Origin: Acetobacteraceae bacterium
GTDB taxonomy: Bacteria; Pseudomonadota; Alphaproteobacteria; Acetobacterales; Acetobacteraceae
DNA length: 37,597 bases
Direction: 5' to 3'
Assembly (NCBI GenBank): GCA_031291795.1
Contig: JARLIJ010000026.1
Coordinates: 1 to 37,597 of the forward strand
Shown here: piece by piece, positions 4,684-34,598 of the stretch
Position numbering within the stretch: position 1 is the stretch's first letter
Layout of the letters: the number at the start of each line of letters is the position of its first letter
Notes under the pieces: model-generated
The model's input: the letters and a program-made list of their open reading frames with translations, nothing else
The model's database searches: none
What the model was told of the DNA's origin: nothing
Made by a program: the position numbers and the translations under genes

Positions 4684-6000
4684 ATGGGCGGGGAACGAGA
4701 AGGCGGGAAGCCGATGCATGCGCTTATTGGTTCTGATCTGCGAATGGTCGTGGTCGGCATCTGCGCAATCGGCAGCCTCAGCGCATGTTCGTTGCCTGGG
4801 GCGCAGCCGGGGCAGTCGTGGGCGGCGGGCGTGTCATCGGCGGATGTGTCGCGGCTGTCTGGTGCGATTGGCGACACGATAGCGGCAAGCCTGCCGCGCG
4901 CGGCGTCCACGTTGGTCGTGCGGCCAGCCGGAGGACCTGCCGGCGGGGAGAGCGGGCAGATCATAACCGCGACCCTGCGTGAGCGCGGGTTCGCGCTTGC
5001 GCCCGACAAGGGCGAGTACCCGGGGGGGCACGTCGTCACGTACAACATTGCGCCGGTCGAACAGCAGAGCGTCCTGCTGAGGCTCGACGTCGACCAGGCC
5101 GAGATGACTTGCCTCTTCGGGCGTGACGTGGGTGGGAATCTGAGCGGCGCCGGCTCGTGTTCTGTTCGCAACAGCGCGGCGCTGACCTTGGCCGCTCGTG
5201 CCGACCTGGCGCCGGCCGCGATCGCCGCTGGCCCGATGCCGGCGAGTCTGACATCGCCTACGCCCCTTGCGCCGCAACCTACGCCGGCCGATCAGCCGCG
5301 GTCTGTCGTGACCGCCGGCGATGACCGTGAACGTGACGGCGTGTCGCCCTCTCGGGCCGAAGCCCCTGCGTCAGTGCGCGCTGCGCTGTCGCGCGCCTCG
5401 GCAATGGCACACACGCGGCAAACAGCCGCAAGGTCGTCTGCTGCGATGAAGCCCGCCACGGCGAGGGTCGCTGAGAACGAGGCGAGGCCACGACCCGTCG
5501 TGACGGCGGCAGCGGCGTTGCCCACCACGGCAGCCTCTGGCAGCTCGACGCCGACGTCCCTGACCGCATCGACCCCCGCAGCGAAGGTGGGGGAGACGGC
5601 ATCGCCAGAACCGGTGAAATCCGTGGCGGCGAACGTCGCGGTCCCAGCCACTCCGGCGGTTTCGACCGCACCTGGTGCGGCCAAGGTCACGGCGGAGCCG
5701 ATCGCGCCTGTGGCACAACCGGCGCCGGAGCCGCGCTGGAGTTTGCGTGCTGGCGATCTTGTCGGCGCGACATTGAAGACCTGGGGCCGAACAGCCGGAT
5801 GGACGGTGCTGTGGAATGCGCCGCTCGATTGGCCAACACCGACGGGCACCGAGTTCACCGGGTCGTTCCTGAAGGTCGCGGAAGCAATGATCACCGCCCT
5901 GCGCGCAGATGGCGCCGACATCCGCGCGATTGCCTACACCCCGAACACAACGCTTGTCGTCAGTGCCGGCAGCGACGTCCAACATGGAGGCCAGCATTGA
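4684..6000 (+). CDS. TrbH-like lipoprotein fused to a TcpQ/PilL C-terminal domain
   Basis: The N-terminus has a lipoprotein signal with lipobox 'LSAC'. Residues roughly 45-190 resemble TrbH, the small lipoprotein encoded beside trbG/trbI: a 'SxLPxAxSTLVV' strand, 'LRERGFAL', then a beta-rich domain. A low-complexity Ala/Pro/Thr linker of about 150 residues follows. The last about 90 residues start 'RWSLRAGDLVGATLKTWGR' and match the TcpQ/PilL C-terminal domain known from type IVb pilus operons. The gene sits exactly at the junction of trb and pil genes. I chose the ATG four bases after the trbI stop; an ATG at 4714 gives a more typical 25-residue signal peptide. The TcpQ part is fairly sure from family knowledge; the TrbH part is a weaker reading by eye. 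It may physically link the mating channel with the pilus secretin. Confidence 0.72.
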   Translation: MGGEREGGKPMHALIGSDLRMVVVGICAIGSLSACSLPGAQPGQSWAAGVSSADVSRLSGAIGDTIAASLPRAASTLVVRPAGGPAGGESGQIITATLRERGFALAPDKGEYPGGHVVTYNIAPVEQQSVLLRLDVDQAEMTCLFGRDVGGNLSGAGSCSVRNSAALTLAARADLAPAAIAAGPMPASLTSPTPLAPQPTPADQPRSVVTAGDDRERDGVSPSRAEAPASVRAALSRASAMAHTRQTAARSSAAMKPATARVAENEARPRPVVTAAAALPTTAASGSSTPTSLTASTPAAKVGETASPEPVKSVAANVAVPATPAVSTAPGAAKVTAEPIAPVAQPAPEPRWSLRAGDLVGATLKTWGRTAGWTVLWNAPLDWPTPTGTEFTGSFLKVAEAMITALRADGADIRAIAYTPNTTLVVSAGSDVQHGGQH

Positions 6001-7637
6001 TGCGGACGACCCTTTTATCGGCGTGCGCCGCCGTTGTACTGAGCGTGGGCGGCTGCTCCACCTTCGACAAGGCAGGCGCCCTCGACAAGACGACCCTGGA
6101 TGCGATCAACGGCAGTGCTGCTCCGCAGTCGGCGGCGTTCCAGACTGTTGACAGGCCCTATCTTCTGGGCACGCCGGTCGAGGTGAGGGCGCAACCGCCC
6201 GAGGCTCTACGGCGCGACATCGTCCTGGTCATTGCATCACCACGGCCGCTGCGCGAAATCGCGTCGCTCGTCTCGGCGAAGATCGGCATTCCGATCGACG
6301 TGGAAATCGGGGGTGGCGCTGGCGGAGCGCTCGGCGGGGGCGGGGCAAACGCGATTCCGACGCCGATCAGCGTTGGCGGGATGTCGATCCCACCTCCACC
6401 GGCATCGCTGTTCAATGCGACGGCGACTGGCCCGATGGCCGCGGCGACAGCGATTGGCGCGTCATCCGGACGCAGCGTAGCCGTCAGCTATCACGGCTCT
6501 TGCTCGGGTCTGCTGGACTACATTGCGGCAAGGGCCGGGGTGTCCTGGAAGTATGACGACGGCCGCATCGTCTTGTACGACGTGGAGTCGAAGACGTTTG
6601 AGATCCCCGCGCTTGCGTGGAAGGTTGCAAGCAAAGGGTCGATCGTTGCGAGCGCTGGCCCGTCGAGCTCGGGCGGCAGTGGCGGCAGCTCGGCGGGCGG
6701 GAGTTCCGGCAGCACGGGAGGATCGTCGATCGGCAGCACTGAGATCGATAACTCCGGCGAGGCGGATGTCTGGAAGAATATCCAGAAGGTGGCGGAGACG
6801 GTCACCGGGGGAGCCCGCGTTCTGGCCGATCCGTCACTCGGGTCGATCACCGTCACCGGTACGCCCGCTCAGATACACAGGGCTGAGGTTTGGGTGCGGG
6901 ACTTGTCCGCGTCGCTGACCAAAGAAGTGGCCATCGAGGTGCATGTCTACACCATAAAGTTGAACGAGGAGCAGAACTATGGCTTTAGCCCGACCATCAA
7001 GTTCAACGATGGGCGGTTCAGCCTGACGGGCGGCGGCGCGTCGATCCCGGTTGTGCAAGGCAGCGCCTCACCGCTGACATTTGGCGGAACGATTCTGACA
7101 GGGCCATTCAATGGAACTAGTGCGATGGTGCAAGCTCTCGCAACGCTTGGGACAGTTACTCAGAATTACGAGCAAACGGCGGTGACGCTGAATGGCCAGC
7201 CGGTGCCGATCCAAGTTGGACAGCAGACCGGATACCTTGCGTCCACGTCCACGACGCAGTCGGCGAATGTGGGCAGCACGGAATCGTTGACGCCAGGGTT
7301 CGTGACAACCGGGTTCACCGGGCTTTTCGTTCCGCGGGTTGCTCAGAAGCGCATTCTGTTGGGCATGAATATCACGATCAGCTCGCTGCTCGCGCTGACG
7401 ACAGAATCGAACGGCAACGAAAGTATTCAGGTCCCGACGACAGCGAACAGCACGTTCCAGCAGAGCGTTTCGCTGGAATCAGGTTCTACGCTGCTGTTGA
7501 CCGGCTTCAAGAACAACAACGCCAGCACCACCCACAACGGTGTGTTCTCGTCGCTGTTCGCCGGGTTGGGCGGGGGCGCGGACACCACTTTCAACCGCCA
7601 GCTCATCGCAATCGTGATCAATGCGAGGACGCTATGA
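6000..7637 (+). CDS. pilN: PilN-type type IVb pilus secretin (lipoprotein)
   Basis: This is the outer-membrane secretin through which the thin conjugative pilus is extruded. The 545-aa protein has a lipoprotein signal with lipobox near 'LSVGGC' and periplasmic N domains, including 'RPLREIASLVSAKIGIPIDV'. A Gly/Ser-rich insertion sits at about residues 219-245. The C-terminal secretin domain contains 'TVTQNYEQTAVTLNGQPVPIQVGQQTGYL' as a split motif and 'LLLTGF' near the end. The start overlaps the preceding stop as TGATG, and the 3' end overlaps pilP by four bases. The order TcpQ-protein then secretin matches R64 pilL-pilN except that pilM lies elsewhere (13683). Confidence 0.92.
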   Translation: MRTTLLSACAAVVLSVGGCSTFDKAGALDKTTLDAINGSAAPQSAAFQTVDRPYLLGTPVEVRAQPPEALRRDIVLVIASPRPLREIASLVSAKIGIPIDVEIGGGAGGALGGGGANAIPTPISVGGMSIPPPPASLFNATATGPMAAATAIGASSGRSVAVSYHGSCSGLLDYIAARAGVSWKYDDGRIVLYDVESKTFEIPALAWKVASKGSIVASAGPSSSGGSGGSSAGGSSGSTGGSSIGSTEIDNSGEADVWKNIQKVAETVTGGARVLADPSLGSITVTGTPAQIHRAEVWVRDLSASLTKEVAIEVHVYTIKLNEEQNYGFSPTIKFNDGRFSLTGGGASIPVVQGSASPLTFGGTILTGPFNGTSAMVQALATLGTVTQNYEQTAVTLNGQPVPIQVGQQTGYLASTSTTQSANVGSTESLTPGFVTTGFTGLFVPRVAQKRILLGMNITISSLLALTTESNGNESIQVPTTANSTFQQSVSLESGSTLLLTGFKNNNASTTHNGVFSSLFAGLGGGADTTFNRQLIAIVINARTL

Positions 7638-8227
7638 CCGCCCGGATTTTGTGCGCGGCCTGGGTGTGCCTTTCGGTGCTTCCGATCGCCGGGTATGCGG
7701 CGGATGGCGCGACGGACGCACAGCCGTCCGACGCACAGCCGTCCAATGAGACGACCGCGCAGACATTGGAACGGCTGAATGGCCAGGCCGCGATCCTGGA
7801 GGTGCAAGCCCGTATCGCTAAAGCGCGGCGGGAGATCGCCGAGGCCGAGAAAGGGGCCGGCGGCGGCGAAAGAGTGGGGGGTGCGCTTCAAGCCGCGCCG
7901 GCAGCCACGCCCGAACGGGCGGCGCCGGTCGTACTGCCGATCGTGCAGATGATCCTTGGCGGCGGCCGGGACCTCACGGCCGAGCTGGCGTTGCCGGATG
8001 GAGGCATCGCGGTCGTGGCGGCTGGGTCCACTATCCGCGGCCTGGGACGGGTGCTGACGATCTCGGAGAGGGGGGTGGTGGTGGACGCCAGCGGCGAGCA
8101 CCTGACCCTGCCGTTCGGCTCTGAGGGCGACGCGCGGGCGAGCCAGACGGGCAGGGGCCAGGTGGCGCCGGCCGGAACCCGGCCGATGGTCCAGCTGCCA
8201 CCCTCCCCACTGCCCGGGGCACGGTGA
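7634..8227 (+). CDS. pilP: PilP-like type IVb pilus biogenesis protein
   Basis: PilP is a small periplasmic pilus assembly protein. The 197-aa product has a signal peptide (cleavage near 'IAGYAADG') and a short coiled-coil-like stretch 'ILEVQARIAKARREIAEAEK' at about residues 54-73. A C-terminal domain follows with 'AELALPDGGIAVVAAGSTIRGLGRVLTIS', the pattern of R64-type PilP (split here as recognised pieces). It is translationally coupled on both sides, ATGA with pilN and TGATG with pilO. In R64 the order is pilO then pilP; here the two are inverted. The assignment rests on position and general pattern. Confidence 0.72.
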   Translation: MTARILCAAWVCLSVLPIAGYAADGATDAQPSDAQPSNETTAQTLERLNGQAAILEVQARIAKARREIAEAEKGAGGGERVGGALQAAPAATPERAAPVVLPIVQMILGGGRDLTAELALPDGGIAVVAAGSTIRGLGRVLTISERGVVVDASGEHLTLPFGSEGDARASQTGRGQVAPAGTRPMVQLPPSPLPGAR

Positions 8228-9402
8228 TGGCCATCACGATCGTTGAGATCGGCGGACGCAAGTGGGCCGCGGGCTTCACGTGGCGAATCTACAATGAGCG
8301 GCCAACAAACCAGTCAATCCAGGATGAGGGACAGACACTTGAAGCCGACTGGGTCGCAATAAGACGCGGCCCCGAGGCGATTCAGGTCGGGTTTGGCGCA
8401 AAGCCGGATGGCGTAAGCTCGACGCGAGGCATTTGTTCTTTAGCGGCAGCCGCCGCAGAACAACAGGAGCAGCCTTGGCTCGGCATCTACCAGATCACCG
8501 AGGATCTGTGGTGGTTCTTGGCGGTGCGCGACGGCCACGCGGTTCTACCGGATGGTGATCTGGTGGGCACCAAGGCCGAAGTCGAGGCGGCGCGGGACCG
8601 GAAGGCCGGGTTTCTAAACGACTGGAATTATGTCGCGGGCGACGCCAACGATCTTGCGGTGTTGGTCGCAGCAGCTGGCAGGAAGCGCACAAGGGTCGAG
8701 GCGCTGAACGCCCCTCCGCGCTGGCTTGCGCCGGCGTTGGCGGGCTTGGCTGCTGTCGTCATCCTGGGCGCCGGGGCGGCGCTGTGGAGCCATCTTGAGG
8801 CGCGCTGGGCCGAACAGGCGAGGCAGGAGCAGCTCGCCCGTGACGCGGCGGCTCGCGCCCGGCAGGCGGCTGTCAGGCAGGCCTCGATCCTGGAGACTAT
8901 GCCGGCGCCGGCAGGATGGCTGGCGGCCTGTCGGGATACTGTGAGCCGGCTGCCGCTTTCAGTCGGAGGGTGGCAGCTCGGGCCGTACGACTGCAGCGGG
9001 AATGCCGTGCATGTGGCATGGCGTCGGGGACCTGGCGCGACGCCGGCTGCGGCGCCACCTGGGGACATCGAGTCGGGCGGAGGCGCGATCAAGGAGTTGA
9101 TCTCCCTGCCGGGCAGCCCGGTTGGGCAAAACAATGCGGTGCCTCTGCAGGAGGCCGAGGCAAGGCTGTACAGCCTCCTCCTGCCGATCGGGGCGCGTGT
9201 GGCCGTCACGAAAGCGGCGGCCGGTCAGAACCTGCCAGGTTCGCCGACCGTGCATCTCATGCCGCGCGAAACATTCCAGGCCGAACTGCCGATCGCGCCG
9301 TTCTCGGTGCGATGGGACACCATTCCCGGGCTGGTTTTGGAAAGTGCCAGCTCGACCGGCAACGGCGCGTGGATCTTGAAAGGATCTCTCTATGGACGTT
9401 GA
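8227..9402 (+). CDS. pilO: PilO-like type IVb pilus assembly protein
   Basis: This is a bitopic inner-membrane protein of the type IVb pilus platform. The 391-aa protein has a long cytoplasmic N-terminal domain (about 1-160), one transmembrane helix near residues 165-183 ('WLAPALAGLAAVVILGAG'), and an Ala/Arg/Gln-rich coiled-coil stretch just after it. A periplasmic domain rich in beta strands follows. This layout and the position before pilQ match PilO of R64-like operons. I chose the ATG that overlaps the pilP stop (TGATG); a GTG one codon upstream is also in frame. The 3' end overlaps pilQ by 11 bases. Confidence 0.78.
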   Translation: MAITIVEIGGRKWAAGFTWRIYNERPTNQSIQDEGQTLEADWVAIRRGPEAIQVGFGAKPDGVSSTRGICSLAAAAAEQQEQPWLGIYQITEDLWWFLAVRDGHAVLPDGDLVGTKAEVEAARDRKAGFLNDWNYVAGDANDLAVLVAAAGRKRTRVEALNAPPRWLAPALAGLAAVVILGAGAALWSHLEARWAEQARQEQLARDAAARARQAAVRQASILETMPAPAGWLAACRDTVSRLPLSVGGWQLGPYDCSGNAVHVAWRRGPGATPAAAPPGDIESGGGAIKELISLPGSPVGQNNAVPLQEAEARLYSLLLPIGARVAVTKAAAGQNLPGSPTVHLMPRETFQAELPIAPFSVRWDTIPGLVLESASSTGNGAWILKGSLYGR

Positions 9403-11008
9403 AGCGCCAGTCATCTCCCGACCGATCCTTGCCAGCAACGTACCAGTGGAAATGCCAGCGATCCCGGACCGTATCCGGGACTTCGTCGCGGTCGATCTGC
9501 CCGCTCGCATCTTGCACGTGGAGCGACGGATATTGGGTGACCCCCATCTGATGACGTGGGTGTCGCGCTGTGAGGGGGCGGGTCTCAGGCTGACGATGAA
9601 GCCCGCCGACATGGATGAACTCGCCAGGTTGCGCGAGAAAGAGTCACAGGCCGTACGGCCTGGCGACGAGGACTTACACAACCGCTTGGCGGCGCTTGAG
9701 TTGGTGCGCCGCGCTGCCGAATTACGGGCATCTGATATTCATCTGCTGATGCCCGCGACACACGCCGAGATCCAGGTCCGGATCAAAGGCGACCTGAAGG
9801 TGCTTGACCGGCTGACTTACGCCGAGGGCGAAGCGCTCGCTCGTTCCTTGTATCAGAGCATCGCGACGGCGCGCGATGCTTCATACAACCCGCTTGAGCT
9901 TCAGAACGCCCAGATCAGCGGACGGGAGCTTGCCGACACCGGCCTGACGTCGGTTCGGATCGTGCGCGGACCGGCTTTTCCAGTGGAGGAGAACGGGTCC
10001 TTCATGATCCTCCGCCTGCAATATGCGAGCACCGCAGCTGCGCGTGGTACGACCAGATCCGCCGGCGGTCTGGTGCGTGTCGCACTGGTGGCACCGCGCC
10101 GCCCTGAAGGCGAGTTGCGCCTCCGCGAAATGGGATTCACACCAAAACAGGAAAAGGCGATGCGGTTGATGGCCGAAGCGCCGAATGGGGTGGTGATCCT
10201 CACTGGTCCGACAGGCAGCGGGAAGACGTCCACCATTTTCGAGTGCATGTCGCATCTCGCACGGGAATATCCGGGCAGACGTCAGATCTCGATTGAGGAC
10301 CCGGTCGAGTATCCGATGCCCTGGGCCATTCAGCTTGAAGTGACGAATGCCACAACCGAGACCGAGACAGGTCTGGCTTTCGCCCATCGCCTGCGGGCCG
10401 CCCTTCGCATGGACCCTGACATCATCATGTCCGGAGAGGTCCGGGGTGCGGACGTGGGGGTGGCAACGATCAATGCGGCCCTGACAGGACATCTCGTCTA
10501 CACGACGCTGCATGTGACTGATCCATTTCTGGCGATCGATCGGCTGGAAATGATGGATCGCGAGCGGCTGCATCGGCAAATGATCTGCGATCATACCATC
10601 ATCCGAGGCCTGGTGGCGCAGCGCCTGGTGCCGCGGCTGTGCGACGCCTGTGCTGTCGATCTGGCGAAGGATCGATCCCGGCTGCCCCCCGAAATATATG
10701 AGGCGCTGGAGACGTACGGGGACCTGTCCAAGGTCAGGGTGCGAGGTGAGGGCTGCAAGAATTGTGGCGGCGATGCGATTTCGGGCCGCGTCGCGGTCGC
10801 CGAGGTGGTCGTCACGACGCCGGAGCTGATGCGTGACTTCGTCGACAACGGCACTGAGGCAGCCCGGCGCAATCATCGGCGCCGCAAAGGCGCGGATGGC
10901 TCGTTGCTGGAGAACGTCGTCGATCGTGTGCTGGCAGGGCTGATCGACCCGAATGACATCGGCCGGTTCGTGGACCGCCTGGTCCCCCGCGAGAGTCAGC
11001 CGGCATGA
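9392..11008 (+). CDS. pilQ: PilQ, GspE/PilB-type pilus assembly ATPase
   Basis: This is the hexameric cytoplasmic motor that powers pilus extension. The 538-aa protein has a Walker A 'GPTGSGKT' at residues 272-279, an Asp box 'SIEDPVEYPMP', and a Walker B region 'DPDIIMSGEVRGADV' near residue 342. It also has a His box 'TGHLVYTTLHV'. Two CxxC pairs at Cys417/420 and Cys455/458 probably bind zinc, a GspE-family trait. It starts inside the end of pilO and its stop overlaps pilR (ATGA). All key residues are present, so it should be active. Confidence 0.95.
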   Translation: MDVEAPVISRPILASNVPVEMPAIPDRIRDFVAVDLPARILHVERRILGDPHLMTWVSRCEGAGLRLTMKPADMDELARLREKESQAVRPGDEDLHNRLAALELVRRAAELRASDIHLLMPATHAEIQVRIKGDLKVLDRLTYAEGEALARSLYQSIATARDASYNPLELQNAQISGRELADTGLTSVRIVRGPAFPVEENGSFMILRLQYASTAAARGTTRSAGGLVRVALVAPRRPEGELRLREMGFTPKQEKAMRLMAEAPNGVVILTGPTGSGKTSTIFECMSHLAREYPGRRQISIEDPVEYPMPWAIQLEVTNATTETETGLAFAHRLRAALRMDPDIIMSGEVRGADVGVATINAALTGHLVYTTLHVTDPFLAIDRLEMMDRERLHRQMICDHTIIRGLVAQRLVPRLCDACAVDLAKDRSRLPPEIYEALETYGDLSKVRVRGEGCKNCGGDAISGRVAVAEVVVTTPELMRDFVDNGTEAARRNHRRRKGADGSLLENVVDRVLAGLIDPNDIGRFVDRLVPRESQPA

Positions 11009-12153
11009 AAATGCCGGCGATCGACCTGGGCGGTCTGTTCTGGTGGCGAAAGCCGCGGTCTCTGAAGAGAACCGGCGGCGGAGGCGGGCTCACGTCTGCG
11101 GCCGAAATCGCGTTTGGCCGGTTTGCGTTGAGTTGGTCAGTGCGCGAGCGCCTCTATCGCCATCTCGCTGTACAGGTTTCGAACGAGGTTACGTGGCTGT
11201 CCGCGTTCGAGTCCTTCCAGGCCCGTCTGCGGCGGAAGCGCCGCCGTGTAACCGCGCGGGTGATCGGCGAAGTGGTGCGGGGCATCAAGAATGGCCGGAG
11301 CTTGGCTGCGGCCCTTGCGCCGTGGATTCCGGCTGACGAAGCCATGATGATCGCGAGCGGCGAGCAGTCGGGAAACCTGCCCGCTGTCCTCGACGCGCTT
11401 TTGAACGCGAAGGGGAAGATCGGCAAAGTCAAGCGCACAGTCCTTGCGGCAGCCGCCGCCCCCGCGGTGTATCTGGTCGCCCTTTACGGCCTGGTGTGGT
11501 CGATCGGGGAATTCTTCCTTCCGTCGATCGAGGAATCAATCCCGCGGGGCCGCATAAGCGGCATTGGCGCCTCGCTTTATGTGCTGGGGGACGCCGCAAC
11601 CAGTCCCTTTGCCATTGTTCCCCTGATTATCCTGGCTGCCTGCGGCGTGCTCGTCGCATGGTCTCTGCCGCGATGGACGGGGCCGGCGCGGGTGCTGGCC
11701 GAGCGGGTATTTCCGTATTCGTTCTATCGCGACATCAACGGGTACCTTTGGCTTCTCAGTTTCTCGACGCTGCTGTCGGCCGGACAGCCGGACGTCAAGG
11801 TTCTTGGTGTTCAGGCAAAGCGCGGATCGCCGTGGCTGCGGGAACGGGTTCTCGCCTTCCGGCGTCGCATGGAAAATGGTGCGAGTCTGCCCGAGGCGTT
11901 GCTGAAATCTCGGTTCGATTTTCCGAACCCGGACATGATCGATGACATCGCATCGACTGCCGGCTTTCGGGATTTTCCAGCAAGGATCGCGAAGGTCGCA
12001 GATCAGTGGGCGACCGAACTTGAATGGAGAACAACGACCCGTGTGAAAACGATCGCGCTGGCCTTCGACATCCTGGTTTACGGCCTCATGGGTTACGTCC
12101 TGATCGCCATCAATAGCATGTCGTCGCAAATGGGCAGCGCGCCGACTTACTAG
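11005..12153 (+). CDS. pilR: PilR, GspF/T2SF-type inner-membrane platform protein
   Basis: PilR is the polytopic platform protein that partners with PilQ. The 382-aa product has two repeats of the T2SF domain. The first is around residues 50-145, with 'GRSLAAALAPWIPADEAMMIASGEQSGNL'; the second is around 240-340, with 'NGASLPEALLKSRFDFPNPDMIDDIASTAGF' (given here as recognised pieces). Membrane helices lie near 148-172, 195-222 and at the C-terminus (about 350-370). Overlap with pilQ indicates coupling. A 39-base gap containing a possible small hairpin (CAAT-CGAAA-ATTG) precedes pilS. Confidence 0.93.
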   Translation: MKMPAIDLGGLFWWRKPRSLKRTGGGGGLTSAAEIAFGRFALSWSVRERLYRHLAVQVSNEVTWLSAFESFQARLRRKRRRVTARVIGEVVRGIKNGRSLAAALAPWIPADEAMMIASGEQSGNLPAVLDALLNAKGKIGKVKRTVLAAAAAPAVYLVALYGLVWSIGEFFLPSIEESIPRGRISGIGASLYVLGDAATSPFAIVPLIILAACGVLVAWSLPRWTGPARVLAERVFPYSFYRDINGYLWLLSFSTLLSAGQPDVKVLGVQAKRGSPWLRERVLAFRRRMENGASLPEALLKSRFDFPNPDMIDDIASTAGFRDFPARIAKVADQWATELEWRTTTRVKTIALAFDILVYGLMGYVLIAINSMSSQMGSAPTY

Positions 12154-12192
12154 ACAATCGAAAATTGGGCTCAACACGAGAAAGGCCACGCC

Positions 12193-12684
12193 ATGTCCGA
12201 AATGCTCGGAACTCTGTTCAAATACCTCTTTGCGATCCTTGGCATCGGGGCAGTCCTCGGCGTTATGTACTCGGTCGTGGGCGACAACAAGACGGCCAAT
12301 GCCGTTACCCAAGTGAGCCAGCTGGCAGCCAACGTGCAGCAGCTCTATGCCGGCCAGAACAACTTCACGTCCGTCACGAACAACGCTCTCATCACCGCGA
12401 AGGCTGTTCCGAACGGGATGTGGTCGGGAACGGCATTGATCACCGACCCCTGGGCGGGTGCCGTGACCGTTTCTGTGAACGACAACAGCGCGGCGATGTT
12501 CGATATTTCGATGGCTGGGGTTCCGGCTGGGAACTGCGCGAAGATCTCGACCTCGATCACTGCCTACTCTCAATTAACGATCAACGGGGGCACGGTCATC
12601 ACGCCGCCGGCCGATGCCGCGGCCATCACCAGTCAGTGTACCTCTACGGCGAACACCATCGTCTTCACGTTCTCTGGTTCGTAG
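12193..12684 (+). CDS. pilS: PilS-like major type IVb pilin with atypical N-terminus
   Basis: This is the candidate main subunit of the thin pilus. The 163-aa protein has an N-terminal hydrophobic helix (about residues 8-28) followed by 'NAVTQVSQLAANVQQLYAGQ'. The rest is globular, with 'ALITAKAVPNGMW' and 'DPWAGAVTVSV', close to the PilS family pattern. Two cysteines near the C-terminus (about 115 and 152) could form the pilin disulfide. The leader is only 'MSEMLG', with no basic residue before the glycine and no Glu at +5, unlike a normal prepilin peptidase site. GAGAAAGG lies about 10 bases before the ATG. The gene is set off by small gaps on both sides, which may allow its high expression. 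Confidence 0.85.
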   Translation: MSEMLGTLFKYLFAILGIGAVLGVMYSVVGDNKTANAVTQVSQLAANVQQLYAGQNNFTSVTNNALITAKAVPNGMWSGTALITDPWAGAVTVSVNDNSAAMFDISMAGVPAGNCAKISTSITAYSQLTINGGTVITPPADAAAITSQCTSTANTIVFTFSGS

Positions 12685-12699
12685 GCCGGAGCGGGAGGG

Positions 12700-13683
12700 A
12701 TGGCGCTTTATAGCCTCACGTTCTCGGACCTGTTCCTGCCCGCGGACATCTCGGGGTGTTGGTACAAGGAGACGGCGGGCGCCCGGGACGGAAGGTCCGT
12801 CCCGGACGATTGCCGAGAAGAGGTCGCGGCATTGCGCGCCCTGCTCGTTCGCCAGGGGGCGGTCGGTGGCAGCAAGGTCGATTGGGAGTGGAAAGGGGAG
12901 GCTCCCAGTCTCCGCCTCAGAATCCAGCAGTTGGACACTGTGGCGGATGGTCCGGTATTCGTGTGTGCGCGGCCCTTGGTCAACGCTGCGACACTGGCTG
13001 AACTCGGGTTCCCGCAATCGATTGCCGCCCGTCTCCTGAGTGAGGAGGTGCAGGACGGTTTGGTCCTGTTCATGGGCCAGACGCGGGCGGGCAAGTCGAC
13101 TGCTTGCGCAGCCTACGCGGTCGAGCGCGTTACGAGACACGGAGGGGTGTGCTGGACGGCCGAGGCGCCGGTAGAGCTGCCGATTCATGGCCCGCACGGC
13201 CGTGGCCAAGTCTACCAATGCGAGGTGGGGTCGGAGGCGGAGTTCGGTGCGTCCATCCGCAAGTTTCTTCGAGCCTCAACAGATTTTATGCTGATCGGAG
13301 AAGTTCTCGACGATGACGCGGCGGCGGCGGCGGTTCGCGCCAGCGCGACAGGTCACCTGGTGACCACAACGTTCCACGCGGCGAGCCTCACCGGCGGCCT
13401 GGAGAGATTTGCGGGCATGTGCGGCAGCGCCGCTAATTTTGCCTCGGCATTACGTGCCGCTTTTCACTTGCAACTGCGTACCGTCGGGGAAAACCCAGCA
13501 GCGCAGTTATCGTCTATCGTGCCAGGAAAGGCCGCACCGCCGAAGCGCGTCCTATCGGTGACGCCGCTGATCGTGCCCGGAGAAAATGCAGAGGCCATTC
13601 GCTCGCATATCCGCGCCGGCCAGTTTCACCAGCTCGCAAGCGAGGTCGACCGCCAGCGGCGGACGTTCATGGGGGCCGGGTGA
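12700..13683 (+). CDS. PilT/GspE-family second pilus ATPase, degenerate motifs
   Basis: This is a second secretion ATPase in the operon, shorter (327 aa) than PilQ and without its zinc motif. Walker A is 'GQTRAGKS' at residues 126-133, where PilT normally has G(P/E)TGSGKS. The Asp box reads 'AEAPVEL' instead of 'IEDPVEY', so the conserved Asp is replaced. Walker B is 'DFMLIGEVLDDD' and the His box 'TGHLVTTTFHA' is kept. The size suggests a PilT-like retraction motor or a TraJ/DotB-like ATPase. R64 has no such gene between pilS and pilV. GGGAGG lies almost against the ATG, an unusually short spacing. The 3' end overlaps pilM as TGATG. Activity is uncertain because of the changed residues. Confidence 0.8.
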   Translation: MALYSLTFSDLFLPADISGCWYKETAGARDGRSVPDDCREEVAALRALLVRQGAVGGSKVDWEWKGEAPSLRLRIQQLDTVADGPVFVCARPLVNAATLAELGFPQSIAARLLSEEVQDGLVLFMGQTRAGKSTACAAYAVERVTRHGGVCWTAEAPVELPIHGPHGRGQVYQCEVGSEAEFGASIRKFLRASTDFMLIGEVLDDDAAAAAVRASATGHLVTTTFHAASLTGGLERFAGMCGSAANFASALRAAFHLQLRTVGENPAAQLSSIVPGKAAPPKRVLSVTPLIVPGENAEAIRSHIRAGQFHQLASEVDRQRRTFMGAG

Positions 13684-14153
13684 TGTATGTGCTGCTGCCC
13701 GTCGTCGTTCTGGCGGCCTTGATGGGTCTGTACAGCATGGCGCGTGTCCCGGCAGCGCATGTGGTGCAGCCAAGGGCGGAGCTGATGATGCAGGCGCAGG
13801 CGGCGCTCTTCGTTTCCTACCGGAACGCCGTCGTCGCCTACGTGACCGCCAACCCGGCATTTGTGGGCGCCGTCCCGGTCTCCGCCCTGGTGAGGCCAGC
13901 CACGGTCGCCGCGCTGCCAGGGCAGGGGAACCAGGTTGTAGCCACGCCGAGCGGGCAGGGACGGGTCATCTACGTCTGGGCGGCGCTCCCGGCCGGGACA
14001 GCCAGTCAGGCCGCCAGGGCGACGAGTGGCGACCTGTCCTACGGGGTGGTCTCGGGCAATGCCTGGGTGTCGCCGGTCGCCGGCGCCATGGGCGCACTCG
14101 GCGTTGCTGTGCCGGCCGGCGACGTCGTGTCCATCTGCCAGATAGGAGTCTAG
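13683..14153 (+). CDS. pilM: PilM-like type IVb pilus protein
   Basis: This 156-aa protein has one N-terminal membrane anchor ('YVLLPVVVLAALMGLYSM') and a small periplasmic domain. Size and pattern, including 'QAALFVSYRNAVVAYV' and a C-terminal 'GDVVSICQIGV', resemble the PilM family of R64 thin-pilus operons. The start is the ATG overlapping the preceding ATPase stop (TGATG); a GTG one codon upstream is possible. In R64 pilM sits between pilL and pilN, so its position before pilV is a rearrangement. The family call is moderately sure. Confidence 0.68.
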   Translation: MYVLLPVVVLAALMGLYSMARVPAAHVVQPRAELMMQAQAALFVSYRNAVVAYVTANPAFVGAVPVSALVRPATVAALPGQGNQVVATPSGQGRVIYVWAALPAGTASQAARATSGDLSYGVVSGNAWVSPVAGAMGALGVAVPAGDVVSICQIGV

Positions 14154-14154
14154 C

Positions 14155-15561
14155 ATGGGACCAATTCTCGGCGTTCTGTTCGCGGCATTGCTGACGCTGG
14201 GAGGCGTCAGCACGCTGATGGGGATCCAGGAGCACGGCGTGGCGAACCAGCGGGGGGCGGTTACCGCAGGGCAGCTCCAGACGATCACGAGTGCCGCGCA
14301 AGCCTACATCCAGGCATACGGGCCGCAGATCGAGGCCGTTGCCACAGCTAGCTCGCCAGCGACGATTACTGTTCCGATGCTGCAGTTGCAGGGCTTCCTT
14401 TCGACGAACACCAGTGCGGTCAACGCCTACGGGCAAACCTGGCAGGTCCAGGTGTTGCAGCCACAACCCGGTGTCCTCCAGGCGCTCGTGCTGTCGCAAG
14501 GAGGCACACCGGTCCCCACGCAGATCGCGCCGGCGATCGCCGCGATGGCGGGCGCCGAAGGTGGGTTCGTCCCGGCGGCGGGGCAATATGGCTCGTTGAA
14601 CAGCACCGTCGCGCAGGGGGCCTATGGCGGCTGGCAGGTGCCGTTGACCGGCTATACAAACCCCGGTCCCGGCCACCTGGTCGCGCTGGTACAGTTCAAC
14701 AATGGGAACCTGACCAACGACTATCTCTATCGGGTGGCGGTGCCGGGGCAACCGGCGCTCAACACCATGCAGACAAACCTGAGCATGGGCGGCAATTCGA
14801 TAACGAACGCCAACAATATAGCAGCACAGACGGTGACGCTGCCGGACGGAGACTCGCTGAAGATTGGCGCGGGGTATTATTATGGCGACAGTTCCAACAC
14901 CGCGGTGAGACAACCCGGTGCGTTCTTTGTGCAGCACGTTGATGGCTCAATAGCGGACATATACGTCGGCAATTCGACCGCTTACCGCGATTCAGCAGTG
15001 GGAGGAAGTCTGTCGGTCGGAGGCAATGCAGCCGTGACCGGGAATGTGACGGCAAACTATATCCATCTTCCGAGCGGGAGTAACTACGGGGTCGGGTCGT
15101 CCATGTTTGCCGGTAACGACGTTGACTCGGCAATATACCAAAATGGGACTCTGTATATTGAGAACGCTCAGGGCAGTCCCAGGCCGATTAATACAAGTTG
15201 GGTCCAATTGGCGCCCACAGCCTGGCTCGGCAATGGGTGTGGGCCAAACGGGACCATCACCGGCGACGAGGATGGCTCTGGCCGCCTGATGGTGTGCGTC
15301 AGTGGTGTGTGGCGGTACGGAAACTCAAGCAGCACGACAACGTATTGGCTGCCATCCGGCTATCCTAGTGACACCCTTTACGATGTCGGCCGTCACATAT
15401 ATTGCGCGACCGCGAACACCAGTGAAGTCTCGCAGAGCTGGGAGGTAGGAAATGCCTTCCGGATATACACCGACTACGACTTCGGTGACGGGACGTACGA
15501 GTGGTACATGTCGCGCGGCGCCTATTCGGCCGACGGCGGCGCTGCCAGCTGTATGAACTGA
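14155..15561 (+). CDS. pilV: PilV-like minor pilin / tip adhesin
   Basis: PilV is the minor pilin at the thin-pilus tip that selects recipients during mating. The 468-aa protein has a pilin-like hydrophobic N-terminus and a family-typical N-terminal half to about residue 200. A 'LNTMQTNLSMGGNSITNANNI'-type linker (split motif) follows, as in shufflon-type PilV. The C-terminal receptor-binding part contains 'GNGCGPNG', 'LMVCVSGVWR' and a final 'AASCMN', with cysteines for disulfides. AGGAG six bases before the ATG supports the start. The linker and early tip region (about 14780-15220) are visibly richer in A/T than the rest of the operon, suggesting an exchanged tip domain. I saw no shufflon repeats or alternative C-termini downstream. 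Confidence 0.88.
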   Translation: MGPILGVLFAALLTLGGVSTLMGIQEHGVANQRGAVTAGQLQTITSAAQAYIQAYGPQIEAVATASSPATITVPMLQLQGFLSTNTSAVNAYGQTWQVQVLQPQPGVLQALVLSQGGTPVPTQIAPAIAAMAGAEGGFVPAAGQYGSLNSTVAQGAYGGWQVPLTGYTNPGPGHLVALVQFNNGNLTNDYLYRVAVPGQPALNTMQTNLSMGGNSITNANNIAAQTVTLPDGDSLKIGAGYYYGDSSNTAVRQPGAFFVQHVDGSIADIYVGNSTAYRDSAVGGSLSVGGNAAVTGNVTANYIHLPSGSNYGVGSSMFAGNDVDSAIYQNGTLYIENAQGSPRPINTSWVQLAPTAWLGNGCGPNGTITGDEDGSGRLMVCVSGVWRYGNSSSTTTYWLPSGYPSDTLYDVGRHIYCATANTSEVSQSWEVGNAFRIYTDYDFGDGTYEWYMSRGAYSADGGAASCMN

Positions 15562-15600
15562 GACATCTATCGGTTTCACCCATATCCTTTTGAGGAAGCG

Positions 15601-16299
15601 ATGGTATCCGCTGCATGTGTCAGCACGGCTTCGACTGCGTATGACGTGCCACAGCCTGCCATTTATAGGCAGATTGATGCAGCATCGGGCGGCGTAGGGG
15701 TGATGCACGTGCCTACGGACTGGCTTCCGGTCCTCGCGCGCGTCGGATTCTCGGCCGACGAGGTGACGGCGGACGAATGCAAGGGCATTCTGGCCGGTGC
15801 CTGGGTGATGGCGTTTGAGCGGATGGGCGAGAAGGCGAAGCCGCAAACGCCGGCCGTGCCGCCAAGTTCTGCCGCCCCATCGGTCGCCCGACTGGCGGCG
15901 CACGGGGGCGCAGCTCCGGAATGTATCACTGGCGCCGCGCAGTATTATCATCTGCCGGTGTCGCTGTTGGTGGGCGTCCTGGCGACGGAGTACGGGCAGA
16001 ACGGGCAGGTGTCCCACAACGCGAATGGCACCTACGATATGGGTCCGGCCCAGATCAACTCGTCTTGGCTCCCGCGGCTGGAGGGGGCGGGTATCACCAG
16101 GTCAATGCTGCTGTCGAATGCCTGCCTGAATATCGCGGTCGGCGCATGGATCTTGGCGCAGGCGATGGACGGGGCATCACCGGCCGATCCGGCCGAGTTT
16201 TGGCGGCACATCGGCAACTACAATTCGCACACACCGCAGTTCAATTTGACGTACCAGCGCAGGGTTTGGCAGAAGCTACAGCAGCAGAACGGCGACTGA
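15601..16299 (+). CDS. Lytic transglycosylase (PilT of R64 / VirB1-like)
   Basis: This is a peptidoglycan hydrolase that opens the cell wall for the pilus or mating channel. The 232-aa protein has a non-catalytic N-terminal part and an SLT-type domain from about residue 105. The expected catalytic Glu is in 'VLATEYGQNG', followed by the family pattern 'NGTYDMGPAQINSSWL' and a C-terminal 'IGNYNSH' motif. No obvious cleavable signal peptide is seen, as in some plasmid-encoded members. GAGGAAG lies six bases upstream. It is the last gene of the co-directional trb-pil block. The R64 homologue is called pilT, but the name is left empty to avoid confusion with the ATPase PilT. Confidence 0.85.
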   Translation: MVSAACVSTASTAYDVPQPAIYRQIDAASGGVGVMHVPTDWLPVLARVGFSADEVTADECKGILAGAWVMAFERMGEKAKPQTPAVPPSSAAPSVARLAAHGGAAPECITGAAQYYHLPVSLLVGVLATEYGQNGQVSHNANGTYDMGPAQINSSWLPRLEGAGITRSMLLSNACLNIAVGAWILAQAMDGASPADPAEFWRHIGNYNSHTPQFNLTYQRRVWQKLQQQNGD

Positions 16300-18060: not shown

Positions 18061-18105
18061 GGCAGGCACTGATCAGTTGTCGTGCCGGGCGCGCGGGCGA
18101 GACCA
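18061..18105. repeat. Left arm of a 45-bp perfect inverted repeat (partner 18950-18994)
   Basis: This stretch is the exact reverse complement of 18950-18994. It covers the last codons of DUF736 and the bases just after its stop. It is the outer edge of a head-to-head inverted duplication whose interior has mostly diverged. Confidence 0.9.
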
Positions 18106-18396
18106 AATCAGGCTGTGGGTGGTCCCGTTCTCGTCGGCGAACAGGTTGGCGAAGATCGGCGCGTCGAAGCTCGGGTCGTCGAGCTTGAGCGAGAGATAAT
18201 CGCGGCCCTCGTTGGACGTTTTCGACCAGGCGGCACCGATTTCGGCGGACCCGATGTAGATCCGATGGCTTGGCGCATTGTCGTTGGTCTGGCCGGTCAC
18301 GGGGACGAGGCGGACGTTCTTGGCTTGGATGGTGAGTGTGCTGATCGTGCCGCTGAACTCGTTGCCGACTTTCTTGAAGGAACCGATGTTGGCCAT
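18073..18396 (-). CDS. DUF736 family protein
   Basis: The 107-aa protein starts 'MANIGSFKKVGNEFSGTIST' and continues with 'APSHRIYIGSAEIGAAWSK' and 'YLSLKLDDPSFDAPIFANL', the standard DUF736 pattern. The family is widespread on alphaproteobacterial plasmids and integrative elements; its biochemical role is not established. I chose the MANIG start by family comparison rather than an upstream in-frame start. A long structured leader precedes it, and a degraded inverted copy of the gene faces it on the other strand. Family knowledge and sequence agree well; function remains unknown. Confidence 0.93.
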   Translation of the reverse strand: MANIGSFKKVGNEFSGTISTLTIQAKNVRLVPVTGQTNDNAPSHRIYIGSAEIGAAWSKTSNEGRDYLSLKLDDPSFDAPIFANLFADENGTTHSLIWSRPRARHDN

Positions 18397-18637
18397 GACA
18401 CTTTTCCTGAGCTGTTTCGAGCCCGCGACCACCGCGGCCTCGATGGCGATCGGGAAGCCGGAGGCGATCGACGCCGCACCCGCTTTGGGCCGGAGCGTCA
18501 GCGGAGGACGGCGGCGGAGAGACTTTCTTGTTTCGCGAGGAATGGGCTTGCCCAGGGGAAGAAAGTCTCTCCGCTGCCGTTGCGGTTCAGGCGATCGAGG
18601 CGAAGCCGGCCTTCGGCCAGATCAAGCCAGGGAGAGG
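18397..18637 (-). promoter_or_regulatory. Structured leader, family A copy 1 (upstream of DUF736)
   Basis: In plus-strand order it holds GGACGGCG (18506-18513), a perfect 16-bp stem (18514-18529 with 18559-18574), and a 29-nt loop with TTCGCGA and the small palindrome TGGGCTTGCCCA. After the stem come AGGCGAAGCCGGCC (18598-18611) and AGATCAAGCCA (18619-18629). The same blocks in the same order, with a stem of different sequence, lie upstream of the gene ending at 33998. The stem edge is 118 bases from the DUF736 ATG. It may act as RNA on the minus strand or as folded single-stranded DNA. Confidence 0.75.
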
Positions 18638-18677
18638 ACGTGTGGTTTGCGGACTGAGACCGCTCAGGAAAAGTGTC

Positions 18678-18982
18678 ATGGCCAATATCGGTTGCTCTAC
18701 ACAAGGGGGTTCAGCATTCAACGCGCGATATTGATGCACGACCAGACAGAATGTCCAGCGTGGCTCTCCATGGGCGGCTCGGGTTGGCACATGCGCGGCG
18801 GGAGGACTCTGAATTTGGACTCGTGCGAAACCGGTGCTGCCTGGTCGAAAGCGTCCAATGAGGGATGTGCCGTCTTCGATGCCGCCGTTCGGCCAGTCGC
18901 CACAGCATCGTCCAAGTGGTTGCCGATGAAGCGAGCGCCCGGGCTTGATTGGTCTCGCCCGCGCGCCCGGCACGACAACTGA
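18678..18982 (+). pseudogene. Degraded head-to-head copy of the DUF736 gene
   Basis: It begins with the same start region, ATGGCCAATATCGGTT against ATGGCCAACATCGGTT in the intact gene, and ends with 45 identical bases including the stop. In between it has lost the frame (a stop occurs within 20 codons) and retains only patches, such as the 'GAAWSKxSNEG' segment. The 22 bases at 18391-18412 reappear inverted at about 18663-18684. The intact and broken copies are divergent, with the structured hairpin near the centre. Confidence 0.8.
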
Positions 18983-18994
18983 TCAGTGCCTGCC
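18950..18994. repeat. Right arm of the 45-bp inverted repeat (partner 18061-18105)
   Basis: It is an exact reverse complement of the left arm, ending the broken DUF736 copy. The following 180 bases (18995-19174) hold no feature I can support. Confidence 0.9.
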
Positions 18995-19174
18995 GCTACG
19001 CCCCTGCGCCATTCGGGGGCGGACGCTGATACGCTGAAGTGCTACGGCCAGTGAGACGGACACGGCCATGGGCGTACGTGCGACACGCGCCTCGCGGCGA
19101 GTAATCGCGGCACCACGATTGGCGCGAGAGTTGCGGCGGAGCCGGACCCTGTCTGGAGCCGGCCCGCCGGAAGG

Positions 19175-19742: not shown

Positions 19743-20333
19743 TCAGGCCGCCTCGAAAGCTGCCATCTGGGCTGCGGCTGACTTGTGGGTCACGCTGGCC
19801 GCGGCCGGTGTAGCGGCTTCGTAGGGCTTCCAGGTTTCCCCGGTGACCTCGGCGTAGGCGGAGATGGCGCCCTCGGCGGCGGCCATGAGAGCGAAGGACT
19901 GGAGGGCCATTTCAGCGGCAAACTGGCGGGCGCGCTCGGCTTTGCTTTCGTATCCGGACGGGCCATCACGGTCTTCGTCGCGCTCGTCATTGAGCAGCTT
20001 GCTGGTGAGTTCCAGTGCTGTCGACTTCTTCGCACCGTAGAACTGTGCGGCGCCAAATGCGGACATGACGTAGGCGCCGGTGATCCGTTGCAGGTGGATC
20101 TGCAGGGCCTTGTCGTTCAAGGCCGTCTCGAAGGCTTTGGCGGCGAGGGTGAGATGCTGTTCCGTGGCGTCCCGGATACCTTCGTAGTCAACGGGTTCGA
20201 GGCCGAATGTGCGGACCAGGTTGTCGGTCAGAGCCTGATGCGGGGCGAGGCGGGCGACCAGCTCAAAGGTGATGGACTGACGATCGCGGGACGTGGCGGG
20301 CTTCGCGGTTGCCTGGGCGGGCTTGTTGATCAT
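19743..20333 (-). CDS. Plasmid-type hypothetical protein (196 aa)
   Basis: The protein begins 'MINKPAQATAKPATSRDRQS' and appears mostly alpha-helical, with an Ala-rich C-terminal third ('AEMALQSFALMAAAEGAISAY' in split form). It also has a segment 'KLLNDERDEDRDGPSG' that is highly charged. I do not recognise a named domain. The start is supported by the inverted partial copy, which begins with the same first 25 bases. Proteins of this kind sit near DUF736 and ParB genes on alphaproteobacterial plasmids as far as I recall. Function unknown. Confidence 0.75.
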   Translation of the reverse strand: MINKPAQATAKPATSRDRQSITFELVARLAPHQALTDNLVRTFGLEPVDYEGIRDATEQHLTLAAKAFETALNDKALQIHLQRITGAYVMSAFGAAQFYGAKKSTALELTSKLLNDERDEDRDGPSGYESKAERARQFAAEMALQSFALMAAAEGAISAYAEVTGETWKPYEAATPAAASVTHKSAAAQMAAFEAA

Positions 20334-20603
20334 GGTCTCGATCCTGTCTCTCTGCCGGGAGGTCCCGCCGGCGTTGTGCCGGCGTCCGCCCCCTCGGGTG
20401 CGGTTCCCTTGGGCGGGCCCAGGCGATCGGAGAGAAAGGCGCGTGCTTACGCGGGACCAGAGCCACGCACAGCGCTCTTGCGCGAGCATGGGGAGGACCC
20501 ACCCTTTCGCGGAGAGCGACGCCCGCCCCAAACCGCACGCATCCGAGGGGGTGACGCCGACACCGGACACTGGCGATCCAGGTAGGCAGAGAATCTGAGC
20601 GCC
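20334..20603. other. Non-coding centre between the 196-aa gene and its broken copy
   Basis: This 270-base GC-rich stretch separates two head-to-head copies of the same 5' end. It contains several short self-complementary runs, e.g. GCCGGC repeats near 20371-20389 and an AAAGG/CCTTT pair around 20437-20507. By position it parallels the structured leaders upstream of DUF736, ParB and ardC, and it may be a diverged leader, but I could not align it securely. Confidence 0.4.
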
Positions 20604-20964
20604 ATGATCAACAAGCCCGCCCAGGCGACGTCGCTACATGGCTTCCTGCTCCTCCATCGTCAGGCCATCACCTTTGAGCTGGTTGCTCCCGTCGGCGTCA
20701 TGCCGTTGACGCTGAGATGGTCGGTCTCGGCCTCTTCCTTTGGTCGGCTCACCGGCACGCGCGATGATTGCGCTGCTCGCGCCATGGCTTGGAATGGTCT
20801 GACGCGGCTTGCGGACCTTCCTCGCGGAATCAATGGGCCTTTCCGAACCCGCCGGCCCGCCCGGCGAGCAACAAGAAGGGGCAAGGCACACCAACAAGCT
20901 GCTCAATGACGAGCGCGACGAGGACCCTGTGGCATCGCGGATGGAGTCACGACAATGCGCCGGC
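20604..20964 (+). pseudogene. Degraded head-to-head copy of the 196-aa gene
   Basis: The first 20 or so bases from the ATG match the start of the intact minus-strand gene. Later patches also match, notably 'ITFELVA' near the start and a run encoding 'KLLNDERDED' near 20900-20930. Between the patches the sequence has diverged or been deleted, and the frame is not maintained. It faces the intact gene across a non-coding centre, the same geometry as the DUF736 pair, and its end approaches the higA stop. Confidence 0.75.
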
Positions 20965-23946: not shown

Positions 23947-24102
23947 TTCTGGATGACCCCTTCCGCGCGCTGCATCGCTGGCTGGCGGGGCAAGGGCGTG
24001 CGCAGCACGGGAGCGCTTTGCGCGACGAACCCTTGCGCCGGCGGACAGAGATGCGGCAGCCACTTCTGATTTTGCATCTCCGTCCCCATTTATCTCATTC
24101 TG
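23947..24102 (-). promoter_or_regulatory. Structured leader, family B copy 1 (upstream of the ParB-like gene)
   Basis: About 155 bases align with 30441-30591 upstream of ardC. The best-conserved core (about 23987-24040) reads, on the minus strand, GCAAGGG then GCGC-AAGC-like arms then CCCTTGCCCCG. GCAAGGG and CCCTTGC pair as an outer stem. The inner stem is perfect in the ardC copy and partly mismatched here. Matching ends near TTCTGGA and near CATTT-CTCATT define the element. It lies about 38 bases from the ParB-like ATG. Confidence 0.75.
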
Positions 24103-30440: not shown

Positions 30441-30591
30441 TTCTGGAACACCCATTCCGCCCCGCATGCCGGCAGACCGGGGCAAGGGCGTGCGAAGCAC
30501 GGGAGCGCTTCGCGCGACAAACCCTTGCGGCGGGCTGGCGGTGATGCGGTAGCCGTTCTCAGTTCATTGGTTTTCCCATTTCCTCATTTTC
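30441..30591 (-). promoter_or_regulatory. Structured leader, family B copy 2 (upstream of ardC)
   Basis: It aligns over its whole length with 23947-24102. On the minus strand the core has GCAAGGG ... GCGAAGC ... GCTTCGC ... CCCTTGC, two nested perfect 7-bp stems. A second hairpin CCCCG ... CGGGG follows toward the gene. It ends about 24 bases before the ardC ATG and slightly overlaps the stop of the upstream gene. Conservation in non-coding DNA between two unrelated genes argues for a shared regulatory function. Confidence 0.78.
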
Positions 30592-33997: not shown

Positions 33998-34261
33998 TCA
34001 GGACACCGCCCGTTCGAGACGGACGGCGGTGCGGGCCATGTATTCGTCGAGCGCGGCGAGCCGGTCATTGAAGATACGGCCATAGAAGCAGGGCTGCCCT
34101 TTCGGCTGGGAGCGAACGATCCAGGCTTCGGCCACGACGTTGGTTCCGGAGCCGGCAGCCGTGATGCCGGCGGTGCGGTGGATCAGGGATGTCGTGGAGG
34201 TAATGCCGTAGTCGTTCGTGATCTCGGCTGAGAACAAGGTGGTAAAAGTTGCGCTGCCCAT
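33998..34261 (-). CDS. Small plasmid-type hypothetical protein (87 aa)
   Basis: The protein starts 'MGSATFTTLFSAEITNDYG' and has 'SGTNVVAEAWIVRSQPKGQP' then 'CFYGRIFNDRLAALDEYM', which looks like a small single-domain protein. I do not recognise the family. AGGAT precedes the ATG by about eight bases. It is preceded by a family A structured leader at the same distance as in DUF736, so the two genes are probably controlled the same way. Confidence 0.65.
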   Translation of the reverse strand: MGSATFTTLFSAEITNDYGITSTTSLIHRTAGITAAGSGTNVVAEAWIVRSQPKGQPCFYGRIFNDRLAALDEYMARTAVRLERAVS

Positions 34262-34500
34262 GTGCGTATCCTGTTCGCCCTCGGATCGCGCCCATCGCGT
34301 CCTCGATGGCGATCGACAGCCCGGGGGGAGGCTGGACCTGCACCGCGCAGCGGCCGCAGCGGAGCGAAGGACGGCGACGGCCGGCTTTTTTGGTTCGCGA
34401 TGCAAAGCCGCAGGCGGCGGAAAAAAGCCGGGCGGCGCTGTTGCAGGAAGGCCAGCCAGGCGTAGCCGGCCCCTGGGCTAGATCAAGCCATGAGAGGCGG
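34262..34500 (-). promoter_or_regulatory. Structured leader, family A copy 2 (upstream of the 87-aa gene)
   Basis: In plus-strand order it has GGACGGCG (34369-34376) and a perfect 11-bp stem CCGGCTTTTTT/AAAAAAGCCGG (34381-34391 with 34421-34431) around a 29-nt loop containing TTCGCGA. Then come AGGCGTAGCCGGCC (34458-34471) and AGATCAAGCCA (34480-34490). The stem sequence differs from copy 1 but pairing, loop length and flanking blocks are kept. The stem edge is 120 bases from the ATG, against 118 in copy 1. The remaining part of this gene-free stretch, to 34659, holds the palindrome pair listed next. Confidence 0.77.
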
Positions 34501-34598
34501 CGACGCGCGGTGCGTGGGCGAACGTCGTGGACCGGCAGGGCAAGGCGCATCAGGTCGTCGCGATGGCGGCGGTTTAGTGACGTCGGTTTCATAACTTA

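Follow-up and report, generated by a model that had tools for sequence, protein, structure and literature searches.

A covarying hairpin upstream of unrelated genes in alphaproteobacterial conjugative elements, a candidate single-strand DNA element of early transfer

What kind of element places the same ordered blocks, with stems of different sequence, in front of two unrelated genes of one contig, and on which strand does it fold? An earlier note on this DNA had raised the question, proposing either a cis-acting RNA or a folded single-strand DNA promoter of the Frpo type. The stretch analyzed here, hereafter the window, is one contig of 37,597 nucleotides from an Acetobacteraceae genome that is incomplete (68.8% complete). 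The contig is described as plasmid-like, and both leader-bearing genes sit on it. It carries the conjugation genes TrbL, VirB8, CagX, and TrbI, together with a minus-strand block of DUF736, HigB, ParB_N, an SNF2-type helicase, ArdC, and Fic. Positions 5799-16299, beyond the trb genes, hold a type IV pilus block that encodes a secretin, PilO, T2SSE, and T2SSF and includes the constant region of a shufflon-type pilin.

The two leaders of the window

The gene behind the first leader, copy A, lies at 18073-18396 on the minus strand and encodes a protein of 107 aa, predicted to be all-beta, whose identification as DUF736 was confirmed (PF05284, E 7.4e-36). Copy B precedes a gene for an 87-aa protein (33998-34261), which is likewise on the minus strand, as had been reported, and for which no family was found; the protein had no Pfam match, and no relatives of it were found in plasmids. 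The ordered blocks described for the two leaders are in place, with GGACGGCG at 18506 and 34369, TTCGCGA at 18532 and 34394, AGCCGGCC at 18604 and 34464, and AGATCAAGCCA at 18619 and 34480. The stems also have the sizes given for them, 16 bp in copy A (18514-18529 with 18559-18574) and 11 bp in copy B (34381-34391 with 34421-34431), each enclosing a 29-nt loop. The stem-to-ATG distances of 118 and 120 hold as differences between positions, but the intervening nucleotides number 117 and 119.

Both leaders share a common 88-nt core with covarying stems, and each folds as one hairpin of ~230-250 nt. On the presumed T-strand, which is the template of DUF736, the whole hairpin of copy A spans 18423-18652 of the plus strand (230 nt, 87 pairs in a single-strand DNA fold), and its covarying core spans 18502-18586 of the same strand (E 7.9e-14 with the covariance model R1, in which this copy is itself included). 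The predicted hairpin of copy B covers 34275-34521 of the plus strand (247 nt, 91 pairs), with the core at 34365-34447, also on the plus strand (R1 E 1.8e-15, this copy again being in the model). The fold of 18410-18660 around copy A reached -69.4 kcal/mol (z -4.8), with none of 200 shuffles equally stable, and the other (mRNA) strand folded about equally well (z -4.8). For copy B, the fold of 34275-34590 reached -93.8 kcal/mol (z -3.2; none of 100 shuffles equally stable), and the other strand gave z -1.5. The base of the copy A hairpin is 26 nt from the start codon; the lower end of the copy B hairpin is the cut point of the folded stretch, 13 nt from the ATG, and the true hairpin may extend nearer to the ATG. 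The structured leader that had been proposed is real, but the proposed unit was too small, as the upstream and downstream flanks also pair together.

Covariation and the strand that folds

Of 26 sites, 2 from the window and the other 24 from 13 annotated loci, 24 went into model R1; L010_17700 and L003_27190 were left out. The core consists of two helices of 6 and 8 pairs. Across 91 distinct R1-aligned rows, including two reverse-strand self-matches, 94.3% of 1270 cells were paired, a figure that leans toward R1 because the rows were found and aligned with it; when the 24 training rows were aligned without R1, 96.7% of 336 cells were paired. In the 91 rows, 190 cells were changed on both sides, and none of 500 shuffles scored as high on pairing or on double changes. 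The covariation score was 0.451 compared with 0.159 in shuffles, and sliding the core partner by 1 to 3 columns lowered pairing to 38-58%. Pairing is thus kept across homologues, and the claim that the stems differ in sequence yet keep their pairing was borne out, with covariation above that of all 500 column shuffles. In the window's own genome, R1 found only copies A and B at E up to 0.1 (150 candidates scored). Because R1 matches nothing else there and stem pairing exceeds all 500 column shuffles, the shared leaders are confirmed as real, well beyond chance.

A sequence-only profile run on 130 fetched loci yielded 202 distinct copies (206 less identical rows), a set dominated by copies from one order. 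Consensus folds of 75 DUF736 and 49 DUF2493 leaders, kept from 105 and 62 after removal of near-duplicates, gave one long hairpin. In single folds with DNA parameters, at least 25 flank-flank pairs formed in 172 of 181 sites, compared with 54 of 181 when the upstream flank was shuffled; the flank analyses leave out 21 of the 202 sites (start outside 85-125 nt or short flanks).

We assessed which strand folds from the wobble pairs, as a wobble tolerated by one strand is a mismatch on the other. With the structure-free profile, the mRNA-strand alignment of 13 pairs in the 202 distinct sites contained 96 A.C combinations, which are G.T on the template, versus 8 G.U, with column-shuffle means of 244 A.C and 152 G.U. 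A single edge pair gives 55 of the 96, and without it the counts were 41 versus 8; when 55 clusters at 80% identity were each counted once, they were 23 versus 1. A fourteenth core pair, which is nearly always A.C, was excluded. The protein-anchored (DUF736) set, reduced from 151 rows to 129 distinct ones and sharing some genomes with the 202-site set, gave 31 A.C versus 1 G.U, and the weakest subset (60 sites, from an earlier run) gave 14 versus 4. The flanking arms held 756 template-type wobbles versus 481, with a null that leans the opposite way (780 versus 888); per site, 125 favored the template strand and 29 were against it, with 27 ties.

The wobble bias in the core, in the protein-anchored set, and in the flanking arms indicates that it is chiefly the template strand, and not the mRNA, whose base pairs have been preserved. 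Part of the G.T excess could come from mutation bias where single strands are exposed; the change inferred for pair 5/80 (template A to G, 13 cells) is not one that cytosine loss on this strand would produce. Folding energy was also considered as strand evidence and was rejected: 88 of 91 sequences favor the template orientation, but shuffles give a near-equal gap (mean strand difference -7.9 observed versus -7.0 shuffled, with the two reverse-strand self-matches and one identical row left out), so that the difference is mostly base composition.

Spread of the element and the genes behind it

The element is widespread among alphaproteobacterial plasmids and genomes. When 72,556 plasmid records were searched with blastn, copy A matched 675 of them and copy B 262; the 10 genera listed for each copy are all alphaproteobacterial, and there were 28 (copy B) and 42 (copy A) further genera. 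R1 matched 30 of 385 genomes of the alphaproteobacterial class at E <= 0.001 and 29 of 299 genomes of the phylum, the window's own genome being counted in both, and within one order it matched 101 of 397 genomes at E <= 1e-4. Matched genomes held 1 to 8 matches each (11-14 candidates scored per genome). Three of the 29 phylum matches fell outside the class, and one of these, L156, was also found by the sequence-only profile; its core copy lies 104 nt before a 69-aa gene with no family assigned. Among 50,697 phage records, one matched a query taken from the L013 locus (MT837770.1, 5242-5417), a 6.2-kb record named "Bacteriophage sp." from human feces that may be a mislabeled plasmid.

Element-bearing loci reached through the DUF736 protein came from Bradyrhizobium, Methylocystis, Afipia, Komagataeibacter, Sphingomonas, Ruegeria, Phenylobacterium, and Mesorhizobium. 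In Mesorhizobium loti CJ3sym, the element precedes both DUF2493 and DUF736. This strain is described as having received ICEMlSymR7A, and the element locus presumably lies within that island.

The genes behind the 202 distinct sites comprise 111 DUF736, 68 DUF2493 (Pfam YAcAr, SLOG-like), 4 ArdC, 4 members of a 76-aa family, and 15 single cases, of which some are mis-picked reading frames, as are some start picks elsewhere. In 182 of 202 sites, between 85 and 125 nt separate the end of the core from the chosen start, a count helped by a start-choice rule that prefers distances near 105 nt. With starts set by protein homology, the element was 95-142 nt upstream in 79 of the 80 closest DUF736 relatives (the best 80 of 554 confirmed relatives, with a range of 60-220 nt examined), and all 151 elements in those loci lie on the strand of the gene.

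The association is with certain gene positions and not with one protein. Six loci contain DUF736 paralogues adjoining transglycosylase genes with no element nearby, the element also stands before DUF2493 and ArdC genes, and two genomes (G060 and G077) have the element and lack DUF736. These observations show that the module tracks gene positions. Among 96 genomes searched for both, 7 had DUF736, and 6 of these had an R1 match; G095 has three DUF736 genes and no R1 match.

No DUF736 was found in viral contigs, and the domain is mentioned in PMC8627217. AlphaFold2 returned an all-beta protein as the best DUF736 model (pLDDT 81.5; the five models range from 40.0 to 81.5). A role for DUF736 as a single-strand DNA binding protein was considered and dropped, there being no PDB fold match at E <= 0.001 (best 0.13) and a best sequence match of E 0.17.

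Transfer polarity, readings of the element, and further repeats in the window

To place the element relative to transfer, nic-like motifs were sought in 15 loci, three of which had none. A first oriT pattern matched nothing and was replaced by two patterns read off the same loci on which they were then used, namely from the traC-traA gaps and from the gaps before relaxase genes. The Ti-type motif TGCGCCCTTGG was found between traC and traA in 6 of 8 Ti-type loci, and the IncP-like motif TTTATC[CT][TAC]G[CT]C before the relaxase gene in 6 of 7 other loci; three of these six read ATCCTGC exactly, and three differ by one or two bases. PMC4814116 gives nic sequences of this type for RSF1010 and RP4.

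In each of the 12 plasmid loci where such a motif was found, it lies on the strand that serves as template for the elements (17 of 17). The nicked strand enters the recipient led by its 5' end at nic, and all 17 elements lie on the leading side, 2.5-14.2 kb from the motif. Leading-region placement with a gene read from the T-strand was thus found in 12 of 12 loci. One of the three elements of locus L010, which has no nic motif, is reversed, and copies occur on both strands in 6 of the 66 loci that have more than one. The window itself yielded no oriT, and its T-strand was therefore assigned by analogy.

The template-strand wobbles and the T-strand polarity in 12 loci argue against a simple mRNA-leader switch and for a T-strand element like Frpo. 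Single-strand promoters of the Frpo/ssi kind are known from F and ColIb-P9 (Masai and Arai 1997 and other work cited in PMC9849209, PMC11541004, and PMC7736820). According to PMC9849209, PMC11541004, and PMC12826799, these two plasmids are the ones with experimental support, and surveys seek further cases by known Frpo sequences or by -35/-10 boxes. In F, the best predicted T-strand hairpin before ssb has 181 nt and lies ~130 nt from ssb. Judging by PMC9849209, we equate Frpo1 and Frpo2 with the two F copies that precede the gene at 64032 and ssb. Like Frpo, the element described here is predicted to form a long, imperfect hairpin on the T-strand, whose stem is rich in A+T toward the tip, and it lies upstream of an establishment gene (ssb in F); as described for Frpo, a plasmid can carry several copies, each before a different gene read from the T-strand. 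Five Frpo homologues, used as a small control, gave 23 G.T versus 5 A.C, a bias that arises partly by construction because their structure was predicted on the T-strand.

No sequence homology was detected with F: R1 had no match in F 48000-67500 up to E 10, and F Frpo matched one of 398 phylum genomes, which is outside this class. The 5000 best plasmid records for F Frpo were, among the matches listed, from enterobacterial genera except for one Pseudomonas and four uncultured sources. A further difference from Frpo is that the base of the copy A hairpin is 26 nt from the ATG. The Frpo hairpin rebuilds canonical -35/-10 boxes according to the literature, but none were found in the two window leaders. 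Across sites, a -35/-10 pair occurred in 1 of 202 versus 2 of 202 shuffled, and the alpha consensus in 24 versus 23, neither being above shuffles. Thus, the suggestion of a Frpo-type promoter agrees with the wobble bias, the oriT polarity in 12 of 15 loci, the ATG spacing, and the neighboring genes, but found no counterpart in promoter boxes or in an oriT within the window. The element works like Frpo in its anatomy and placement; we make no claim that it belongs to Frpo/ssi.

Other known systems were compared as well. RNAs such as radC and the other plasmid leader RNAs of Rfam are structured leaders of mobile-element genes; unlike these, neither window leader matched any Rfam 15 family at E up to 10, so the element is not one already described there. 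At the gathering thresholds, no such family was found in the window, nor any match in six further loci. In three more loci, searched at a looser threshold, the sole matches were Atu_Ti1 and a weak P17, which both fall in L006 at some distance from the element there. Integron attC sites are imperfect single-strand DNA hairpins with variable stems, and they lie 3' of cassette genes, whereas the element here lies 5' of its gene at a near-constant distance; this separation draws on the general description of attC. No published description of the element was recognized in a search of the journal literature.

With moderate confidence, we favor the reading in which the leader acts as single-stranded DNA, folded on the T-strand of conjugative plasmids and ICEs, and switches on early genes in the recipient. 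From the predicted and covarying fold, its spread and placement, the strand bias, and the polarity to nic-like motifs, we infer a promoter role, action in the recipient, and a reader of the hairpin. Once the T-strand enters the recipient, some 70-90 pairs would form in the leader, giving an imperfect hairpin that resembles a duplex, ends near the start codon, and would be recognized by RNA polymerase or by a dedicated factor. Transcription would then begin and run through the downstream gene in the direction of oriT, allowing proteins such as DUF736, the DUF2493/SLOG protein, and ArdC to be made before second-strand synthesis, which the transcript may also prime. Conversion to duplex would remove the hairpin and turn the element off.

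The wobble bias and nic polarity also fit a site for single-strand initiation (priming) only, at which the hairpin would load primase or RNA polymerase and gene expression would be incidental. Toprim proteins are annotated nearby in six loci, and Frpo itself is described as both promoter and priming site in PMC7736820. A priming site would not need what is seen here, a ribosome site and a nearly fixed distance from the ATG of unrelated genes, and we regard this reading as unlikely. A cis-acting RNA leader, with an mRNA fold that controls translation or transcript stability, would account for the 5' leader position, the covariation, and the ATG spacing, and copy A does fold equally well on the mRNA strand. 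However, G.U pairs on the mRNA strand are rare (8 versus 96 A.C, and 1 versus 31 in the protein-anchored set), the reverse of what an mRNA fold tolerates, and no Rfam family corresponds to the leader; the wobbles thus disfavor this half of the earlier proposal and leave it quite improbable. The G.T bias of a T-strand fold would equally be produced by an antisense RNA with the template-strand sequence that regulates the gene behind it. Antisense-direction promoters were found in 1 of 202 sites versus 2 shuffled (6 versus 23 for the alpha consensus), and such an RNA leaves the relation to the nic motifs unexplained, making it very improbable.

A regulatory site in duplex DNA, where a plasmid regulator (perhaps DUF736 itself) binds a dyad, would match the palindromic form and the short conserved blocks such as TCGCGA and CCGCGATGGTCGCGG. 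Such a site would not account for compensatory changes that keep the pairing while the sequence varies, nor for the strand bias, and the six DUF736 paralogues by transglycosylase genes lack the element while DUF2493 and ArdC genes carry it; we see very little likelihood in this explanation. A repeated or mobile palindromic element of the REP/RIME type with no role in expression would also be repeated, palindromic, and intergenic. Copies are few, however, from 1 to 8 per genome with 11-14 candidates scored in each and 2 among 150 in the window's genome. They stand at a set distance before a small set of genes, and only 1 of 50,697 phage records contains one. This origin is the most improbable of all, the distinction from REP/RIME being one of copy number and placement.

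If the T-strand reading holds, the element could tentatively be placed in a second, sequence-unrelated class of single-strand DNA promoters, possibly widespread in alphaproteobacterial conjugative elements, which would lack sigma-70 boxes and be read in another way by RNA polymerase or by a dedicated factor. Such a class would define an early-entry gene set of DUF736, SLOG-type DUF2493, ArdC, and small unknown proteins, and, lacking the -35/-10 boxes, it would escape existing surveys. As a portable module in 101 of 397 genomes of one order, it would bring Ti-type plasmids and the symbiosis islands of rhizobia within the range of early-entry expression, and it would mark which genes of unknown role act at entry.

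The window contains other repeats. A second repeated structured leader of 56 nt (23986-24041 and 30478-30533, 93% identical) stands before ParB_N and near the ArdC start, with strong hairpins on both strands; its identity with the element was considered and rejected, as blastn of this leader against 251 fetched loci gave no match. Across copy A from the DUF736 gene, at 18656-19003, inverted repeats of gene parts show a second, inverted DUF736 copy that is apparently broken, with 2 stop codons in the segment checked. Beside the HTH/HigB pair (19967-20929), inverted repeats of 41, 44, and 28 nt suggest another inverted duplication. Finally, the contig ends (1-140 and 37458-37597) form a perfect 140-nt inverted repeat, which may be an effect of assembly.
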